Translations under genes and position numbers: made by a program | Notes under the pieces: model-generated | What the model was told of the DNA's origin: nothing | Seen by the model: the letters and a program-made list of their open reading frames with translations, nothing else | Database searches by the model: none | NCBI RefSeq assembly: GCF_000024545.1 | Contig: NC_013947.1 | Location: 1,798,001 to 1,862,000 of the forward strand | Origin: Stackebrandtia nassauensis DSM 44728 | GTDB taxonomy: Bacteria; Actinomycetota; Actinomycetes; Mycobacteriales; Micromonosporaceae | DNA: 64,000 bases | Direction of reading: 5' to 3' | In this document: positions 56,570 to 64,000 of the stretch, piece after piece | How the letters are laid out: each line of letters begins with the position of its first letter | How positions within the stretch are numbered: the stretch's first letter is position 1

Positions 56570-58855
56570 GTGGGAGAGTCATCGGGGTCGGGTGACACCG
56601 AGCCGGTAGTCAGTGAGCTCGGGCAGTGGATGCTGGACAGGCACCGCGCCGGGCGCACCGTCGAAGCGCTGTCCATGTTCCGCAAGGCCCGGCAGCGCGG
56701 GATTCCGTTGGAACCGCAGCTGACCGAGCTGCACCGACGCCTGCTGTGCGACGATCCGGCGCTGTCGGGGGACGACGAACCCACCTGGCCCGCGCCCCGG
56801 CAGCTGCCGCCCGCGCCGAGTGACTTCGTCGGCCGCGAGACCGAACTGGCCGAACTGGACGCTCGCGCGTCCGGGCCGGTCATCGGGGTGCACGGCCTGG
56901 CCGGGGTCGGCAAGACGACGCTGGTGCTGCGGTGGGCGCACGGCGTCGCCGCCGGGTTCCGCGACGGACAGTTGTTCGTGGACCTTCGCGGCGGACCGGT
57001 CGGGGAACCGTTGCGGCCCTCGCAGATCCTGGACCGGGCGCTGCGGGCGCTGGGCGTTCCCACCGACGAGATCCCCTCCGATCTGGACCGACGTTCCCGG
57101 CTGTACCTGAGCCTGCTGCGGCAGCGCCGCGTCCTGGTCGTACTGGACAACGCCCGCGACACCGAGCAGGTCGATCCACTGTTGCCGGTCACCGGTTCGA
57201 GCCTGGTCATCGTGACCAGCCGGGAACCGTTGCCGGACATCGATTCCCTGGAACTGGGCGTACCCGGCACCGACCAGGCCGTCGCGCTGCTGCCCTCGGG
57301 GCGGCGCAGTGCCGAACTCGCCGAACAGTGCGCCCGGCTGCCGCTGGCGCTGCGAATGGTCGCCGGGATCCCCGACGTGGCGCTGCGCCCGGCCACCGAA
57401 CCGAAAGCGGCACTGGGGACGGTCCTGGAGGAGGTGTACCGGCGGCTGGGGCCGCGACAGCAGCGGCTGCTGCGGGTCGTGGGCGGTTTCCCGGCCGCCA
57501 CCGCGGGCACCACCGACCTGGCCGTGATGGCGAACCTGCCCGTCGACGAGACCGCGCGACTGCTGGACGAACTGGCCGCGACCGGGCTCATCGAGACCGT
57601 CGGGCCCGGCGGCTGGCGCGGCCACGACCTGGTGCGCGCGTTCGCCCGCGAACAACCGGGGCACAACGATTCCCCGCGCGACGACCTGCGTCGGCTGCTG
57701 GACTGGTACGTGCCCGCCACCTCCCGCGCCAACGCCGTCGCCTTCGGCACCTCGGTCCGCGCCGAGACCGGCGAGGTACGGCCGCCGGAGTTCGCCGACG
57801 CCGCCGAGGCCCTGGAGTGGCTGGACTTCCGGTACCCGAGCCTGCTGGGCGCGATCCGGCAGGGAGCCGGGAACGGCAACCCGGGACCGGCCGCCCACCT
57901 GGCCTCCGACCTGTTCCGGTACTTCTCGGTGCACGGGTACATCGAGGAATGGATGGACGTCACGGCGGTGGCGCTGGACGCCGCCCGCAGCGCCGGCGAC
58001 CGCAAGATCGAGGTCCGGCTGTCGCTGAACCTGGGCTACGCCTGCTGGGACGCCGCCAAAGTGGACGAGGCGCACCGGCACTTCCAGCACGCCCTGGCCG
58101 TGTCGCAGGAACTGCGCGACCGCGACAGCCAGGCCACCGTCCTGGGTGTCCTCACCGGCGTCAACATCACCGTCGGCCGGTACCTGCGGGCCTACGAGTA
58201 CGCCAGCGTCGCCCTGACCATGAGCCAGAGCCTCAACAACCACGTCAGCGAGGCCATCGCCACCGAGAACCTCGGCATCGTGGATCTGTTGCGCGGCAAC
58301 AACGCGCAGGCGATCCGGCTGCTGGAGCGGTCGCTGTCGCTGTACCGGCGGCACAAGGTGCGGCTCATCGAACCCGACGCCCACAGTGAACTCGCCCGGG
58401 CGCTGTTCCGCGACGGGGACCTGGAGAAGGCCGCCTCGCACGCCGAACGCTCGGTGGGCGAGTTCAGCGACATCGGCGACGACAGCGCCGCCGCCTGGGC
58501 CAAGACCCGGCTCGGCCTCATCAACGGCGTCCTCGGCGACCCGGCCGAGGCACTGGACCTGCACCGGCAGGCGCTGCCGGTGATGCTGCGCTCGCCCCGC
58601 AACGAGTACAAGTCCGAGGCCCTCAACAACGCCGGAATCACCTACACCGCCGCGGGCCGTCCCGACTGGGCGCTGGAGTTCCACCACGAGGCGCTGGTCA
58701 ACGCGCAACGCATCAGCTGCCTGTACGAGAAGGCCCGGGCGCTGGACGGCATCGCCGCCGCGCACCGGGCCCAGGGCGAACGCGCCGACGAGTACGCCCA
58801 CCGCGCCCACGAGCTGTACGTGCGACTGGGTGCCGCCGAAGCCCGACGCGGCTGA
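56570..58855 (+). CDS. AfsR-like NB-ARC-TPR protein lacking the DNA-binding domain
   Basis: About 761 residues from GTG (VGESSGSGDTEPVVSELG). Residues 18-65 (LDRHRAGRTVEALSMFRKAR, LEPQLTELHRRLLCDDPAL) match only the last helices of a BTAD domain; the winged helix is missing. NB-ARC follows: GVHGLAGVGKTTLVLRWAHG (about 104-123), RVLVVLDNARDTEQ, SSLVIVTSREPLP. Ends in a long TPR array. It may be a truncated SARP or a STAND signalling protein. The frame is open further upstream to 56174, but that part does not resemble protein. Confidence 0.82.
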   Translation: MGESSGSGDTEPVVSELGQWMLDRHRAGRTVEALSMFRKARQRGIPLEPQLTELHRRLLCDDPALSGDDEPTWPAPRQLPPAPSDFVGRETELAELDARASGPVIGVHGLAGVGKTTLVLRWAHGVAAGFRDGQLFVDLRGGPVGEPLRPSQILDRALRALGVPTDEIPSDLDRRSRLYLSLLRQRRVLVVLDNARDTEQVDPLLPVTGSSLVIVTSREPLPDIDSLELGVPGTDQAVALLPSGRRSAELAEQCARLPLALRMVAGIPDVALRPATEPKAALGTVLEEVYRRLGPRQQRLLRVVGGFPAATAGTTDLAVMANLPVDETARLLDELAATGLIETVGPGGWRGHDLVRAFAREQPGHNDSPRDDLRRLLDWYVPATSRANAVAFGTSVRAETGEVRPPEFADAAEALEWLDFRYPSLLGAIRQGAGNGNPGPAAHLASDLFRYFSVHGYIEEWMDVTAVALDAARSAGDRKIEVRLSLNLGYACWDAAKVDEAHRHFQHALAVSQELRDRDSQATVLGVLTGVNITVGRYLRAYEYASVALTMSQSLNNHVSEAIATENLGIVDLLRGNNAQAIRLLERSLSLYRRHKVRLIEPDAHSELARALFRDGDLEKAASHAERSVGEFSDIGDDSAAAWAKTRLGLINGVLGDPAEALDLHRQALPVMLRSPRNEYKSEALNNAGITYTAAGRPDWALEFHHEALVNAQRISCLYEKARALDGIAAAHRAQGERADEYAHRAHELYVRLGAAEARRG

Positions 58856-58867
58856 CGGCGCTTCTCG

Positions 58868-59359
58868 TCAGGCCCGTCGGACCTCGTAGAGGAAGCAGCC
58901 GTACTCGACGGCCCGCACGTGCACCAGCGCCGTTGCCGGGTCGGCGAACTGCTTCGCCAGCGTATCCTCAATGGACGTCACCGTGGGGTTGTCGTCCTCG
59001 ACGTACACGCCGCCGATGATGCGTCCCTCGGCGTTGTAGGCGCGGCACACCCGCCGCTGCCCCAGCATGCCGGTCGGCACGCCGGGCTCGGCCGGGCCGC
59101 CGCAGTCCTCGGCGTGGATGAACACCGGCCCGAACTCCAGGTACGGCCCGGGCTTGGCGCCGGTCTCGGCCGCCCAGTGCCGCAGCGGCGAGTAGGACAC
59201 GAGGAACAACCGCTCGCCGTCGCGACTGCGCCGCAGGCAGCAGCGCAACGGCTGCTCGGGATCGACGTGTTCCTCCGGCGGGTTCCCGGCGTCGTCGAGT
59301 TCGCGCAGCCGCTCCAGGATGTGCGGCGCGATCGCCGCGATCGTGTAAGTCGAAGTCAT
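58868..59359 (-). CDS. DUF1203 family protein
   Basis: 163 residues: RCCLRRSRDGERLFLVSYSPLRHWAAETGAKPGPYLEFGPVFIHAEDCGG (about 39-88) is the DUF1203 signature (CCLR, GPxEExGPVFIH). It ends HVRAVEYGCFLYEVRRA. Start at MTSTYTIAAIAPHIL. Cytosolic, function unknown. Convergent with the NB-ARC protein, 12 bp apart. Confidence 0.87.
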   Translation of the reverse strand: MTSTYTIAAIAPHILERLRELDDAGNPPEEHVDPEQPLRCCLRRSRDGERLFLVSYSPLRHWAAETGAKPGPYLEFGPVFIHAEDCGGPAEPGVPTGMLGQRRVCRAYNAEGRIIGGVYVEDDNPTVTSIEDTLAKQFADPATALVHVRAVEYGCFLYEVRRA

Positions 59360-59458
59360 ACCCGCAACGCTACGACCGCGTCCGGCCCACGGCTGGCGGA
59401 AAAACGACATGAAGTTGGCCGGGGCCGTGGTGACAGCCCCGGCCGTGCCGAGCCCCGC

Positions 59459-60256
59459 CTAGAACGCCGGGATCGAGTTCGGGAACTTCTTCGCCAGGTA
59501 CTTCTTGACCTCGTCGGAGTTCAACAGCTTGGCCAGTTTCTTGACCTGCTCGTCGTCCTTGTCCTCCTCGCGCACCACCAGGACGTTGGCGTACGGGTTG
59601 TCCTTGCCGTCCTCCAGGATCAGCGCGTCCTTCTTGGGCTTGAGGTCGGCCTCCAGCGCGAAGTTGCCGTTGATGACCGCGAAGTCCACATCGTCCAGCG
59701 AACGCGGCAGCTGCGCGGCCTCCAGCGGGACGATCTTCAGGTCCTTCGGGTTCTCGGCGATGTCCGACTCGGTGGCCTCCAGGCCCGCGCCCTTCTTGAG
59801 CTTCAGCAAACCGTTGGCCTCCAACAGGTGCAGCGCCCGGCCGCCGTTGGTGGCGTCGTTGGGGATGGACACCTCGGAACCGTCCTTCAGGTCCTTGACG
59901 TCCTTGATGGAGCTGGAGTACCCGCCCAGCGGCTCGGTGAACACCTCGGCTACCGACACCAGGTTCGCGTCCTCGGCGGAGTTGTAGTCCTCCAGGAACG
60001 GCACATGCTGGAAGAAGTTCGCGTTGATGTCGCCGTTGGCCAGCGCCGGGTTGGGCTGGCTGTAGTCGGTGAACTCCTTGACCTCGATCGACAGGCCCTC
60101 TTTGTCGGCGAGGTTGTCGTCGATGTACTCCAGCAGCTCACCGTGCGGGGTCGGGGAGGCGCCGACGACGAGCGTGTCGGAGCTGCCCGCGCAGGCGGTC
60201 AACGACGTCGCGGCCAGGGCCCCGGCTATCACCGTCGTGGCTATCGTGCGTTTCAT
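59459..60256 (-). CDS. metQ: Methionine ABC transporter substrate-binding lipoprotein
   Basis: 265 residues. Lipoprotein signal with lipobox LTAC (Cys22). The NlpA/MetQ pattern follows: VVGASPTPHGELLEYI, VKEFTDYSQPNPALANGDINANFFQHVPFLEDYN (about 59-92), SIPNDATNGGRALHLLEANGLL, and NPYANVLVVREEDKDDEQVKKLAKLLNS at the end. Binds methionine outside the membrane. Encoded 74 bp after metI, last gene of metNIQ. Confidence 0.94.
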   Translation of the reverse strand: MKRTIATTVIAGALAATSLTACAGSSDTLVVGASPTPHGELLEYIDDNLADKEGLSIEVKEFTDYSQPNPALANGDINANFFQHVPFLEDYNSAEDANLVSVAEVFTEPLGGYSSSIKDVKDLKDGSEVSIPNDATNGGRALHLLEANGLLKLKKGAGLEATESDIAENPKDLKIVPLEAAQLPRSLDDVDFAVINGNFALEADLKPKKDALILEDGKDNPYANVLVVREEDKDDEQVKKLAKLLNSDEVKKYLAKKFPNSIPAF

Positions 60257-60330
60257 TGTTCTCTCCTTATTCGATCGATTTAGTCAAATTAATGTCGGAC
60301 GTCGCGGAAAGCGGCCGGGCCCCGTGGGGA

Positions 60331-60972
60331 TCAGCGGTGGTCGAGGCGGCGGGCCGTCCGGTCGCCGATGAACTGGAAGATCTGCACCAGCACCACCAGC
60401 AGCACCACCGTGGCGATCATGTAGTCGGTGCGGTAACGCTGGTAGCCGTAGCGGATCGCCAGGTCACCCAGGCCACCGCCACCGATCGCCCCGGCCATCG
60501 CCGAGTACCCGGTCACAGCCACCAGGGTCACGGTCAACCCCCGGATCAGGCCCGGCATGGCCTCGGGGATCAGCACCCGGCGCACGATCCCGGAATGGGT
60601 GGCGCCCATGGAGTCCGCGGCCTCGATCAGGCCCGGGTCCACCGACACCAGCGCCGACTCCACCAGCCTGGCGAAGAACGGGATCGCGGCCACCGCCAGC
60701 GGCACGATCGCCGCCGCGCTGCCGATCGTCGTGCCCACCAGCAGCCGGGTGAACGGCGTGATCGCGACCATCAGGATCACGAACGGCGCCGACCGTCCGA
60801 TGTTGACGATCACGCCCAGGACGCGGTGCGTCGCCGGCCGCGGCCGGGTGCCCTGCGGCCCACTGGCGTACAGCACCACTCCCAGTGGGAGTCCGAACAG
60901 GATGGTCCAGAAGATCGAGGCGCCGACCATCTGGACGGTCTCGATCGTGGCGACGATGAGATCCTCGGTCAT
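60331..60972 (-). CDS. metI: Methionine ABC transporter permease
   Basis: 213 residues, five membrane segments. TIETVQMVGASIFWTILFGLPLGVVL at the start; the EAA coupling loop EAADSMGATHSGIVRRVLIPEAMPGLIRG (about 116-144) is the MetI consensus; GAIGGGGLGDLAIRYGYQRY follows. Starts as ATGA over the metN stop, so the subunits are coupled. Confidence 0.94.
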   Translation of the reverse strand: MTEDLIVATIETVQMVGASIFWTILFGLPLGVVLYASGPQGTRPRPATHRVLGVIVNIGRSAPFVILMVAITPFTRLLVGTTIGSAAAIVPLAVAAIPFFARLVESALVSVDPGLIEAADSMGATHSGIVRRVLIPEAMPGLIRGLTVTLVAVTGYSAMAGAIGGGGLGDLAIRYGYQRYRTDYMIATVVLLVVLVQIFQFIGDRTARRLDHR

Positions 60973-61931
60973 ATCCGACGCACCCCGTATCCCTGCTCGG
61001 AAAGCCAGGCGGCGGCTTTCTCGCTGGCTGCTGACTGGGGCAGCCGCAACCGCAGCCGCCCAACGGTTCCCTGCGCCACGGTGTGCACCGAGGCGTCGGT
61101 GATGGAAGCGTCCACATCGAAGTGCCGCACCAACGCGGCCAGCACCGGCTCGCCCACGGCCGAACCGGTGAACGTCACCTCGACGTTGATCCCGCCGCCC
61201 TCGCCCGGTGCGGCCAGCCGGAACGCCTGATCGGCCAGGTCCGAACCCGGTGTGGCCAGCAGCTCCGCCACTGGCCCGTGCTCGACGACCTTGCCGTCGC
61301 GCATCACCGAGGCCGAGTCGCAGATCCGCGTGATGACGTCCAGCTCATGCGTGATGAGCAGGATCGTCAACCCCAGCGTGTCGCGCAGCTTCACGAACAG
61401 GTCGAGGATCTCCACGGTCGTGCCCGGGTCCAGGGCACTGGTCGCCTCGTCCGACAACAACACGTCGGGACGCAGGGCCAGTGCCCGGGCGATGGCCACC
61501 CGCTGCCGCTGACCACCCGACAGCTGCGCCGGGAACTTGCGCGCCTGATCGGACAGGCCCACCAGCTCCAGCAACTCCGCGACCCGCCGCTGCCGCTCGC
61601 CCCGCTCGACGCGGTGCAGCTTCAGCGGCAGCTCCACGTTCGCGGCGACCGTCCGGTTGTGCAACAGGTGGAAGTGCTGGAACACCATCCCGATGCGGGC
61701 TCTCGCATCCCGCAGTCCGGCGGGCGTGAGCGTCCCCAGGTCTCGCCCGGCGACCGTCACGGTCCCCGAGTCGGGAGGCTCCAGCAGGTTCACCACCCGC
61801 AACAGCGTCGACTTCCCGGCACCGGAACGGCCGAGAACGCCGTGGATCGTGGCCGCGGGCACGTCAAGACTCACGTCATCGACAGCCCGCGTCGAACCGA
61901 AACGTTTAGATACTTTGGACAGAGATATCAC
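60969..61931 (-). CDS. metN: Methionine ABC transporter ATP-binding protein
   Basis: 320 residues, GTG start (GTG-ATA-TCT). Walker A GRSGAGKSTLLRVV (about 34-47), Q loop VFQHFHLL, signature LSGGQRQRVAIARAL (about 138-152), Walker B VLLSDEATSALDP, switch His THELDV. The C-terminal 75 residues are the NIL/ACT-like regulatory domain typical of MetN, which binds methionine for transinhibition. GAGG lies 7 bp before the start and is paired in one of two competing leader hairpins. Confidence 0.94.
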   Translation of the reverse strand: MISLSKVSKRFGSTRAVDDVSLDVPAATIHGVLGRSGAGKSTLLRVVNLLEPPDSGTVTVAGRDLGTLTPAGLRDARARIGMVFQHFHLLHNRTVAANVELPLKLHRVERGERQRRVAELLELVGLSDQARKFPAQLSGGQRQRVAIARALALRPDVLLSDEATSALDPGTTVEILDLFVKLRDTLGLTILLITHELDVITRICDSASVMRDGKVVEHGPVAELLATPGSDLADQAFRLAAPGEGGGINVEVTFTGSAVGEPVLAALVRHFDVDASITDASVHTVAQGTVGRLRLRLPQSAASEKAAAWLSEQGYGVRRI

Positions 61932-61938
61932 AGTCGTG

Positions 61939-62000
61939 CCTCATCTTGCGATGGCATGAGGGAGCCGCTTCGGGGCGCGGCGAAGGAATGGTGGCCCTCA
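61939..62000 (-). promoter_or_regulatory. Competing hairpins controlling the metN ribosome binding site
   Basis: On the minus strand, CCTCAT (61961-61956) can pair with ATGAGG (61944-61939), hiding the GAGG SD of metN. The same strand can instead pair as CCCTCA (61962-61957) with TGAGGG (62000-61995), which begins with the stop codon of the leader peptide. An inner GCCGC/GCGGC stem supports the second form. The structures exclude each other; translation control is inferred. Confidence 0.65.
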
Positions 62001-62051
62001 GCTGGCACACATTCGACAGCACGCGGGCATGCCCGGCATCGCGACGCGCAT
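61998..62051 (-). CDS. Met/Cys-rich leader peptide upstream of metNIQ
   Basis: A 17-codon frame, MRVAMPGMPACCRMCAS, with four Met and three Cys, ending at a TGA inside one arm of the alternative hairpin 67 bp before metN. No strong SD precedes the ATG, but an upstream in-frame GTG/ATG exists. A possible promoter (TTGCGA near 62130, TAGCCT near 62104) lies upstream. The amino acid content fits a sulphur amino acid sensor; translation is not proven. Confidence 0.55.
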   Translation of the reverse strand: MRVAMPGMPACCRMCAS

Positions 62052-62269
62052 GGCGTCGCGGCAGGTCAGGGCACGCACTCGGGTGGTCACAACACGCAGG
62101 CTATCCAGCCCGGCGGACCGGTCGCAACCGATTGTGAACAAGGTCGCCAAGCCCCGGGGCCACCAACCTCCTCCCCACTTTTGACCGTAGACGGGGAGCG
62201 CTGAAGGCGGGCTTAACCTGGCTGAGGCCACGCTGAGCACGACTTAGCAGCCGAGATAGGGTTCGCTGC
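62052..62269. other. Divergent gap between metN leader and M16 protease
   Basis: 218 bp without a convincing gene. It must hold the metNIQ promoter on the minus strand and the M16 promoter on the plus strand. I checked for S-box or SAM-IV style cores on the minus strand and did not see a complete one. Confidence 0.4.
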
Positions 62270-63586
62270 GTGACTTCTCCCCAGCAGGTGGACATTCGCG
62301 CCGCCGCGTTTCCCGTCGAACAGTATCGGCTGTCCAACGGACTGAGGGTGGTACTCAGCCCGGACCGGGGGGTCCCGGTGGTGGCCGTCGCCGTGGTCTA
62401 CGACATCGGCATCAGACTGGAACCGCAGGGCCGCACCGGCTTCGCGCACCTCTTCGAGCACCTGATGTTCCAGGGCTCGGCGAACGTGGCGAAGATGGAG
62501 CACATGAGCTACGTGCAGGGCTCCGGCGGCACCCTCAACGGCTCCACCCACCTGGACTACACCGACTACTACGAGATGCTTCCCTCCAACGCCCTGGAAC
62601 GGGCGCTGTTCCTGGAGGCCGACCGGATGCGCGGCCCGGCCATCACCGAGGAGAACCTCGCCAACCAGGTCGACGTGGTCAAGGAGGAGATCCGGGTCAA
62701 CGTCCTCAACCGCCCCTACGGCGGTTTCCCGTGGCTGAAGCTGCCGCCGGTGATGTTCGATACCTTCCCCAACGCCCACGACGGCTACGGGTCGTTCGCC
62801 GATCTGGAGGCCGCGACCGTCGCCGACGCGCAGTCGTTCTTCGACACCTATTACACCGCGGGCAACGCCGTGCTGACCGTCGCCGGTGACTTCGACGTCG
62901 CCGAGGCCACCGCGATGATCGAGCGGCACTTCGCCGACGTGCCCGGCCGCCCCGCGCCCGCGCACCCCGGGATCGGGGAGCCGGACCTGACGTCCGAGCG
63001 CCGCCACGCCTACACCGACCCGCGGGCCCCGTTGCCCGCGATCGCCGCCGCCTGGCGGGTTCCCGATCCGGTGAAGGACACCAAGGGCTACCTGCCGTAC
63101 GTGGTGCTCGCCGAGCTGTTGACCGACGGCGACGCGTCGCGGTTGGTGGAGCGCATGATCCAGAAGGACCGCACTGCCACGAGCCTGGGCGGGTACGTCG
63201 GGTTCATGGGGGAGCCGTTCGCGGTGCGCGACCCCACGGCGCTGCTGTTCCAGGCGCACCTGCCGCCCGGCGGCGAACCCGAACGGGTTCTGGCTACTGT
63301 GGACGAGGAGTTGCGGCGGCTGGCGTCCGACGGTCTCGCCGAGGGCGAGCTGGAGCGGGTCAAGGCCCGCATCGCCACCCACGTGCTGCGCGAGGACGAC
63401 TCGGTCATGAACCGGGTGCTGCGGCTGGGCACCGCCGCCGCGCTGCACGGCGACGCCGACGTGGCCCGGCAGCTGCCCAGACTGCTCGGTGAGGTCACCG
63501 CCGCCGAGATCACCCAGGCCGCGTCCCTGCTCACGCCGCAGCGTCGCGCCGTCGTCGAAGTCATCGCAGGAGGGGCTCAGCAGTGA
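62270..63586 (+). CDS. M16 family zinc protease, active subunit
   Basis: 438 residues, GTG start. The inverted zinc motif HxxEH is present as FAHLFEHLMFQGS (His61, His65 region) with the distal Glu in VVKEEIRVNVLNRP about 76 residues later. GGTLNGSTHLDYTDYYEMLP and the C-terminal domain with SRLVERMIQKDRTATSLGGYVG complete the MPP/PqqL-like fold. Processes peptides, possibly envelope or secreted. Its stop overlaps the next start as GTGA, so the two form a heterodimer-type pair. Confidence 0.93.
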   Translation: MTSPQQVDIRAAAFPVEQYRLSNGLRVVLSPDRGVPVVAVAVVYDIGIRLEPQGRTGFAHLFEHLMFQGSANVAKMEHMSYVQGSGGTLNGSTHLDYTDYYEMLPSNALERALFLEADRMRGPAITEENLANQVDVVKEEIRVNVLNRPYGGFPWLKLPPVMFDTFPNAHDGYGSFADLEAATVADAQSFFDTYYTAGNAVLTVAGDFDVAEATAMIERHFADVPGRPAPAHPGIGEPDLTSERRHAYTDPRAPLPAIAAAWRVPDPVKDTKGYLPYVVLAELLTDGDASRLVERMIQKDRTATSLGGYVGFMGEPFAVRDPTALLFQAHLPPGGEPERVLATVDEELRRLASDGLAEGELERVKARIATHVLREDDSVMNRVLRLGTAAALHGDADVARQLPRLLGEVTAAEITQAASLLTPQRRAVVEVIAGGAQQ

Positions 63587-64000
63587 CCGTCCACACAGTT
63601 CCCGATCTGGCTCCGGCCACCGAATTCACGCTGCCGGACTGTCACGAGCGCGTCCTGGACAACGGCCTGACGATCCTGGCGATCCGCAGGCCCTCGGTGC
63701 CGCTGGTGGAGGTGCGGCTGCGACTGCCGTTCGCCGAGGCCGACGTCGCCGTGTCCTCGGTGATGGCGCAGACCATCATGTCCGGCACCGCCGACAAGTC
63801 CATCGTCGACATCGCCGCCGAGTTGCAGTCGGTGGGCGGCGGGCTGTCGGCCTCGGTCGACCCCGACCGGTTCCTGTTGGCGGGCAACGCTCTCGTCGAC
63901 GGACTGCCCAGGCTGCTGGCCACCATGTCGGAGGTGCTGCACGGCGCCACCTATCCCGAGGACCAGGTCGACGTCGAGCGCGAGCGGTTGGCCGACCACA
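63583..64000 (+). CDS. M16 family protein, non-catalytic partner (3' end cut by window edge)
   Basis: The readable 139 residues begin MTVHTVPDLAPATEFTLPDC, then VLDNGLTILAIRRPSVPLVEVRLRLPF. At the position of HxxEH the sequence is VMAQTIMSGTADKS, so the zinc site is missing, as in the regulatory subunit of bacterial M16B pairs. GGAGG stands 10 bp before the GTG. Expected to assemble with the preceding protease. The gene continues beyond the window. Confidence 0.88.
   Translation, partial: MTVHTVPDLAPATEFTLPDCHERVLDNGLTILAIRRPSVPLVEVRLRLPFAEADVAVSSVMAQTIMSGTADKSIVDIAAELQSVGGGLSASVDPDRFLLAGNALVDGLPRLLATMSEVLHGATYPEDQVDVERERLADH

Follow-up and report, generated by a model that had tools for sequence, protein, structure and literature searches.

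A Met/Cys leader and a conserved RNA module upstream of metNIQ in Stackebrandtia nassauensis and other actinobacteria: a putative ribosome-sensed attenuator

A short reading frame rich in methionine and cysteine codons precedes metNIQ in Stackebrandtia nassauensis DSM 44728, and raises the question of whether ribosomes translating it control the operon, and through which RNA. The window analyzed is a stretch of 64,000 nucleotides (contig NC_013947.1, positions 1,798,001 to 1,862,000), in which leader, metN, metI and metQ follow each other in this order on the minus strand (Table 1). The metN product scores 300 bits against TIGR02314, below the cut-off of 499.7. The metN Shine-Dalgarno (SD) sequence GAGG (61942-61939) lies 7 nt 5' of the GTG start at 61931. 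Upstream of the leader, on the other strand, resides a gene for an M16 peptidase (62270-63586).

Table 1. Features of the leader region and of the metNIQ operon (coordinates of the window)
Feature	Coordinates	Strand	Remarks
metQ	59459..60256	-	substrate-binding lipoprotein; PF03180 above cut-off, NCBIfam MetQ models below theirs
metI	60331..60972	-	permease; NF008049 above cut-off
metN	60969..61931	-	ATPase with NIL domain; PF00005 and PF09383 above cut-off
metN SD GAGG with GGCAC block	61936..61942	-	AGGCA(C/T) in 4/4 genus members
SD hairpin CCTCAT/ATGAGG and competing CCCTCA	61939..61962	-	in S. nassauensis; not in L009, L010, L011
Hairpin GCCGC-GCCCCGAA-GCGGC	61964..61981	-	stem covaries
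GAGGGC RNA element	61994..61999	-	overlaps leader stop codon
Leader ORF VTTRVRALTCRDAMRVAMPGMPACCRMCAS (metL-type)	61998..62090	-	30 codons and TGA
TGT GCC (last Cys codon and next)	62004..62009	-	complementary to metN SD side 61936-61940; suggestive
CGA ATG codons	62010..62015	-	near-invariant sequence
-10-like TAGCCT	62098..62103	-	ends 7 nt before leader GTG; predicts leaderless mRNA from 62090
-35-like TTGCGA	62122..62127	-	18 nt before -10; assigned by position only

The leader frame and its conservation before metN

The initial annotation had described a Met/Cys leader starting at ATG 62051. The leader is real, and the segment 62051-61998 reads MRVAMPGMPACCRMCAS up to the stop, with four Met and three Cys, its C-terminal end being VAMPGMPACCRMCAS; the start must probably be moved. 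The frame stays open upstream beyond GTG 62090, 39 nt before the ATG, and TAGCCT ends 7 nt ahead of this GTG, so that translation most likely begins at GTG 62090, on a leaderless mRNA, and covers 30 codons. A generic promoter scan returned no sigma-70 site. Among relatives, 119 of the 125 leaders fetched (113/119 distinct) have a T(A/T)NNNT hexamer, most commonly TTTACT, 5-9 nt before an in-frame ATG or GTG that leaves 20 or more codons to the stop, as against 199 of 8627 random ATG or GTG triplets of the same loci (2.3%), these being taken in any frame and with no length condition. A looser rule raises the count to 122/125, three of them through an internal ATG. Three of the six leaders lacking the hexamer (L067, L070, L169) start too near the record end, and three (L062, L141, L150) are truly without. 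The four genus members share a (C/T)TCACA block a short way above the -35 position (62128-62141 in the window, and L009, L010, L011).

By sequence-only criteria a leaderless sORF with a Cys/Met-rich end is not rare by itself, mononucleotide-shuffled windows yielding 2.1 such frames against one in the real window. Given this high chance level, the claim for the leader rests on its place before metN and on its conservation. No leader peptide family model of NCBIfam or Pfam matches it at E up to 1.

A published homologue is metL of Streptomyces lividans TK24 (SLIV_29928), described in the available part of the report as a Met/Cys leader of 29 codons, called leaderless from RNA-seq, which ends in CMCRRMCAF and precedes metNIQ (PMC8079986); the Streptomyces loci analyzed here carry the same leader type. 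The S. nassauensis leader, ending in CCRMCAS, and that of L189, which reads MSTTSDRTPATEATMTPGARCMCRMCAF, both have the C(R)RMCx end directly before metNIQ and are thus metL-type. CCRMC comprises two adjacent Cys plus one, many other leaders having CMCRMC, and a contiguous poly-Cys tract near the stop is absent from the S. nassauensis leader.

MetN was sought in 121 genomes, S. nassauensis included; 42 matched, and 30 loci were taken for analysis. This comparison of the region upstream of metN, proposed in the initial annotation, found the leader frame conserved in relatives: of the 30 loci, for which MetN similarity was the sole selection criterion, 11 have a metL-type leader before metN, and 92 distinct leaders were available for codon counts. 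Over the 30 nt preceding the CGA codon, Cys makes up 18.3% of in-frame codons, vs. 8.9% and 7.1% in the other frames, and Met 9.2%, vs. none in the other two. Cys positions shift between lineages, the residue being kept (e.g., ACMCVRRMCER, CTCRCRMCDR). Together with the in-frame enrichment, this speaks for a sensor that is translated rather than for a motif acting as RNA only.

Among the other 19 metN loci, five (L015, L016, L022, L031, L034) have a Cys-containing frame of another kind, R(R)xxxDY or LTRRRxxD. The leaders of L015 (MRRSIHLIRRRCVDYLLVCSGTC) and L016 resemble that of S. nassauensis in standing before metN, in having Cys near the stop, and in being leaderless by the same promoter test, which both pass; they differ from it in the peptide and in lacking the RNA module described below. 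L021 carries before metN a leaderless Cys/Met-rich ORF, VTAFDAMRMPGRSAGCCCRVRCSMRSS, again without the module, possibly a third leader type. At the two loci of the PAPS-reductase family present in the S. nassauensis genome, no other Cys leader was found within the stretches examined.

A conserved RNA module at the leader stop codon

Three elements, CGAATG, GAGGG and a hairpin with the loop GCCCC(G/A)AA, accompany the leader. Searched in this order, the last as GCGCCCC(G/A)AAGC, they are found in the same 11 of 30 metN loci as the metL-type leader, and in none of the 19 others. This is the pattern-free test of the module. A larger set was obtained with the pattern CTGAGGGN{5,30}GCGCCCCGAAGC, which fixes GAGGG and the loop letters, so that among loci found with it these are invariant by construction. 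The covariance model R1, built mostly from pattern matches, is yet able to accept changes.

The pattern occurs in 28 of 354 family genomes, vs. 2 for a reversed control pattern, and all 28 matches have MetN no more than 500 nt away on their own strand; the S. nassauensis genome holds one copy. In the genome collection at least 117 pattern loci were found, with record titles including Streptomyces, Kitasatospora, Actinomadura and Glycomyces; loci L147-L183 were assigned to lineages by their likeness to named ones. Among the matches listed, 95 have a leader ending at TGA. Ten of these lie in records that end before metN could show; each of the remaining 85 is followed by MetN, at less than 500 nt in 84 cases and at 573 nt in one. 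Another 21 of the 117 matches listed, lacking both leader and adjacent metN, were discarded as chance. The spacer between module and metN ranges from about 60 to about 570 nt.

With 0.01 as the upper limit of E, R1 found matches in 26 of 396 phylum genomes. The matches are strong in 12 (S. nassauensis and 11 members of the Streptomyces-type genus g77), all with MetN downstream. Weak matches (E 1.6e-5 to 0.009), in 14 other phylum genomes and as a second copy in a Streptomyces-type genome, have neither a metL-type leader nor an adjacent metN, and for this reason are likely chance. Within g77, R1 matches 139 of 150 genomes, one having two copies on two contigs, and the leaders match those of the Streptomyces loci; the remaining 11 genomes gave no match at the threshold used.

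Of 117 distinct pattern-found segments, 114 carry the exact CGAATG hexamer at its codon position (115/117 per column), and 116 have it no more than 22 nt from the stop context; it is in frame in the rows inspected. No pairing partner for it was found by eye in the printed sequences. The CGA codon is near-invariant despite having synonyms, and the conservation of CGA ATG is unexplained. CGAATG and GAGGG are separated by 16 nt in 59 rows, 17 nt in 26 and 13 nt in four; spacings of 25-26 nt scored in four more rows are an artefact, the search having matched an earlier CGCATG.

GAGGGY is found in all 93 model matches, which come from 93 sources picked to span lineages and low scores, the last base being C in 86 and T in 7. 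The stop codon is TAG in 27 of them (mostly CTAGAGGG), GAGGG being retained, and in L174, one more of the pattern loci with MetN, the leader stops 4 nt earlier and TGAGGG is still there. Since GAGGG is kept when the stop changes to TAG or moves, it is an RNA signal.

The hairpin loop is GCCCCGAA in 90 of the 93 model matches, the other three being changed outside GCCC, and its stem varies with compensation. Over 49 rows the outer pair is CG in 29, GC in 12, AU in 2, UA in 1, UG in 1, other in 3 and gapped in 1; the next pair is UA in 31, CG in 13, UG in 2 and other in 3. The loop could possibly pair with GAGGGC, as a pseudoknot. GGG(C/U) and GCCC can pair in 49/49 rows, 48 of which were found with the pattern fixing GGG and the loop, and the pairing is kept in 93/93 model matches; three of the four pairs are constant, and the only variation is C to U on one side. 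As the pairs are mostly invariant, and fixed by the search pattern, covariation neither supports nor rejects the pseudoknot.

Rfam 15 has no family matching positions 58000-64000 of the window, where three chance hits fell far below gathering scores, nor any of six representative loci at E up to 1. This is in line with the initial annotation, which favoured control by translation over a SAM riboswitch. A full-text literature search, with most subscription papers outside its coverage, identified by title or abstract start no paper describing the GAGGGYC/GCCCCGAA module, which is apparently new to description.

Further elements are restricted to single lineages. In 10/10 Actinomadura-type loci (L074, L079, L089, L099, L129, L133, L145, L155, L157, L183; seven named Actinomadura, three assigned by likeness) a second sORF of 18 codons, MxFQRHLLSHAPYPPGRA followed by a stop, is located between module and metN. 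It stands 60-82 nt past the metL stop and is conserved at the amino-acid level; the remaining 273 sequences of the 283 scanned lack the motif. The PYPPG end looks like that of an arrest peptide. In 51 of 78 Streptomyces-like loci a TCCGNTATNCGGA inverted repeat resides above the leaderless promoter, from 139-143 nt upstream of the metL stop, and could be where a repressor or activator of metL-metNIQ binds.

Predicted pairings at the metN ribosome binding site

According to the initial annotation, TGAGGG at the leader stop would pair with CCCTCA and free the metN SD, the alternative CCTCAT/ATGAGG hairpin would hide it, and the position of the leader ribosome would choose between the two. The strings are all in place (TGAGGGC 62000-61994, CCCTCA 61962-61957, CCTCAT 61961-61956, ATGAGG 61944-61939), and in S. 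nassauensis the exchange is energetically feasible. When folding was limited to the RNA downstream of the ribosome, with the 3' end 3 or 15 nt inside metN, TGAGGG:CCCTCA had a probability of 0.29-0.98 for the A-site at -15 to -33. At the later positions, -12 up to the stop, it was zero and the SD hairpin reached 0.65-0.82. Mean SD unpairedness changed only from 0.06-0.11 to 0.16-0.32 in these short segments; with 40 nt of metN folded in, the SD was unpaired at 0.11-0.24 at every ribosome position.

The pairing is not conserved in congeners, CCCTCA and ATGAGG being both absent from the spacer of L009, L010 and L011. Nor did 103 leaders show a consistent difference in SD accessibility between stalled and terminated ribosomes: it went up in 8 and down in 1 of 26 loci with compact spacers, up in 1 and down in 16 of 77 with long spacers, where the opposite direction is thus commoner. 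The CCCTCA/ATGAGG switch was hence discarded as a conserved mechanism.

A different closed state, in which a leader Cys codon pairs with the metN SD, is suggested within the genus by the complementarity of GUGUGCC to the SD block AGGCA(C/T). The four genus members are invariant for CGAATGTGTGCC, CTGAGGGC, CGCCGCGCCCCGAAGCGGC and for AGGCA at the metN SD. The block forms 7 pairs in L009 and L010 and 6 contiguous ones, including one wobble, in S. nassauensis; the longest run of L011, also of 6, lies elsewhere (GAATGT:GCATTC). Such a state has been described for mycobacterial Cys leaders, in which stalling reportedly prevents structures that sequester the downstream ribosome binding site.

Outside the genus, GCAC precedes the metN start in 53 of 60 Streptomyces-like and 8 of 9 Actinomadura-type loci, vs. 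14-28% of control windows, and is absent in 21/21 Glycomyces-type loci; loci within one lineage are not independent. Runs of at least 6 pairs are found in 4/4 genus, 9/9 Actinomadura-type and 46/60 Streptomyces-like loci, and in 2/21 Glycomyces-type loci, below control. They argue weakly, because 35-49% of control windows have one. Duplex energies between leader and ribosome binding site do not differ significantly from dinucleotide shuffles (mean z -0.21 in the genus, -1.13 in the family, -0.94 in others), and the duplex was dropped as a statistically supported conserved pair, neither shuffles nor control windows showing it to be one. A long-range helix near metN, UGUCGA..GUGYG:CGCAC.UCGACA, proposed by RNAalifold for 59 Streptomyces-like leaders, was likewise rejected, as it has no compensatory changes. 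In the metN start regions inspected, Glycomyces-type loci (among L040-L060) have no SD-like AGG near the start and feature a recurrent AGCGAAAGCGA block upstream, which suggests another way of initiation at this start.

Proposed ribosome-gated control and its alternatives

Taken together, metNIQ is probably governed by a ribosome-sensed attenuator gated at the leader and the RNA module. The metNIQ mRNA would begin at the leader GUG and the 30-codon ORF would be translated leaderless. A shortage of cysteinyl- (or methionyl-) tRNA would make ribosomes pause on the terminal Cys/Met codons (CCRMC), the paused ribosome would keep the leader 3' end from downstream pairing, and metN would be translated. 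With an ample supply of sulphur amino acids, the ribosome would reach the stop and depart, the downstream fold would form, and metN would be held off. The part gated by the ribosome would be the module by the stop, i.e. CGAAUG, GAGGGYC and the hairpin with the near-invariant loop. The conserved frame, its Cys/Met codons, the leaderless promoter position, the linkage to metN, the covariation of the stem, a metabolically fitting target, the published metL homologue and the leaderless ORFs by which mycobacteria respond to cysteine point to such a device. Against it stand the lack of a common SD unmasking, the mostly reversed effect in long spacers, the non-significant leader:RBS complementarity, the variable spacer, the unexplained CGAATG, and the missing module in 19/30 metN loci and 11/150 g77 genomes. 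Because no common unmasking is seen, and duplexes do not beat shuffles, confidence in ribosome-gated control is moderate, and its output may be either translation or Rho action.

A narrower form of the ribosome-sensed attenuator is offered tentatively, at slightly less than even chances. GAGGGYC might dock into the GCCCCGAA loop to form a small pseudoknot, permitted by a ribosome paused at Cys/Met codons and destroyed by a terminating one; the structure would be an actinobacterial element present in about one copy per genome, placed before metNIQ wherever flank suffices, with a core kept despite changes of the stop.

How the leader ribosome could act otherwise is best seen from the region between module and metN. 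Its C-rich, rut-like stretch might be bared to Rho once leader ribosomes leave, and be shielded by stalled ribosomes or by the pseudoknot. Such ribosome-gated Rho termination is unlikely, and yet several data suit it: a simple consensus scan of 61850-62350 found no intrinsic terminator, hence none between leader and metN as in a classical transcription attenuator; variable spacers fit Rho better than SD masking; Rho has been proposed for mycobacterial cys leaders, in the part of that paper at hand (PMC1262725); and the C/G ratio after the leader is 1.60 in 71 long and 1.75 in 26 compact spacers, vs. 1.19 and 1.06 in controls, about 6-7% of which reach these values. The control windows are mostly coding, however, so that C-richness may be an ordinary intergenic feature. 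The switch of the initial annotation, as the device setting the SD free, is improbable. Its open and closed forms are near isoenergetic (-23.3 vs. -23.4 kcal/mol) and exchange with ribosome position in the short fold; the SD is nevertheless mostly paired even in the open form of the longer one, and TGAGGG is conserved alongside another complement, the GCCC of the hairpin loop.

The two remaining readings take the peptide out of the mechanism. A metabolite-binding RNA, riboswitch-like and overlapping the leader ORF by chance, would agree with the near-invariant loop and GAGGGYC, able to form an H-type pseudoknot, and with an RNA conservation independent of the stop codon; it is rendered distinctly improbable by the very small conserved core, the absence of matches to SAM or other Rfam families, and the enrichment of Cys/Met codons in frame, at positions varying with the lineage. 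That the leader ORF is altogether a chance reading frame, as the counts in shuffled windows would allow, is very improbable, frame and residues being conserved before metN across several actinobacterial lineages, and RNA-seq having been reported, in what is available of the study, for the S. lividans homologue (PMC8079986).

The ribosome-sensed attenuator combines features of known kinds, namely the metabolic target, the leaderless Cys/Met leader and the idea of attenuation, with an RNA module which is apparently the new part. Leaderless polycysteine sORFs of mycobacteria were reportedly described by Canestrari in 2020. The S. nassauensis leader is like them Cys-rich and located before sulphur genes, and is predicted to be leaderless as well. 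It differs in its mixed Met/Cys composition with no long contiguous poly-Cys tract, in its target, metNIQ, and in being followed by a conserved hairpin module. In M. smegmatis, as far as the accessible text of the two reports goes, leaderless ORFs respond to cysteine and ribosome pausing controls the downstream gene (PMC9031893, PMC13236596). Predictions of Mycobacterium Cys leaders and of the LEU pseudoknot date from 2005 (Seliverstov; PMC1262725, available in part). The LEU element before actinobacterial leuA likewise couples an amino-acid-rich leader ORF to a predicted pseudoknot, and differs, by its description, in leucine codons and gene (PMC1262725). The run of leucine codons pairing with the leuA SD, typical of LEU, is not seen here, the leader not being leucine-rich and the gene being metN. 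The available sections of the S. lividans metL paper stress methionines and threonines, call termination unclear, mention downstream hairpins, and contain no mention of the GAGGGYC/GCCCCGAA-loop module, of a role of Cys, or of the spread (PMC8079986).

If the ribosome-sensed attenuator holds true, Streptomyces, Actinomadura, Glycomyces and Stackebrandtia would share one conserved leader that couples methionine uptake to how far the tRNAs for sulphur amino acids are charged. Cysteine-type ribosome sensing would then extend beyond the cysteine genes of mycobacteria to the import of methionine. The RNA module has a sharp definition, and is open to direct test in laboratory Streptomyces.
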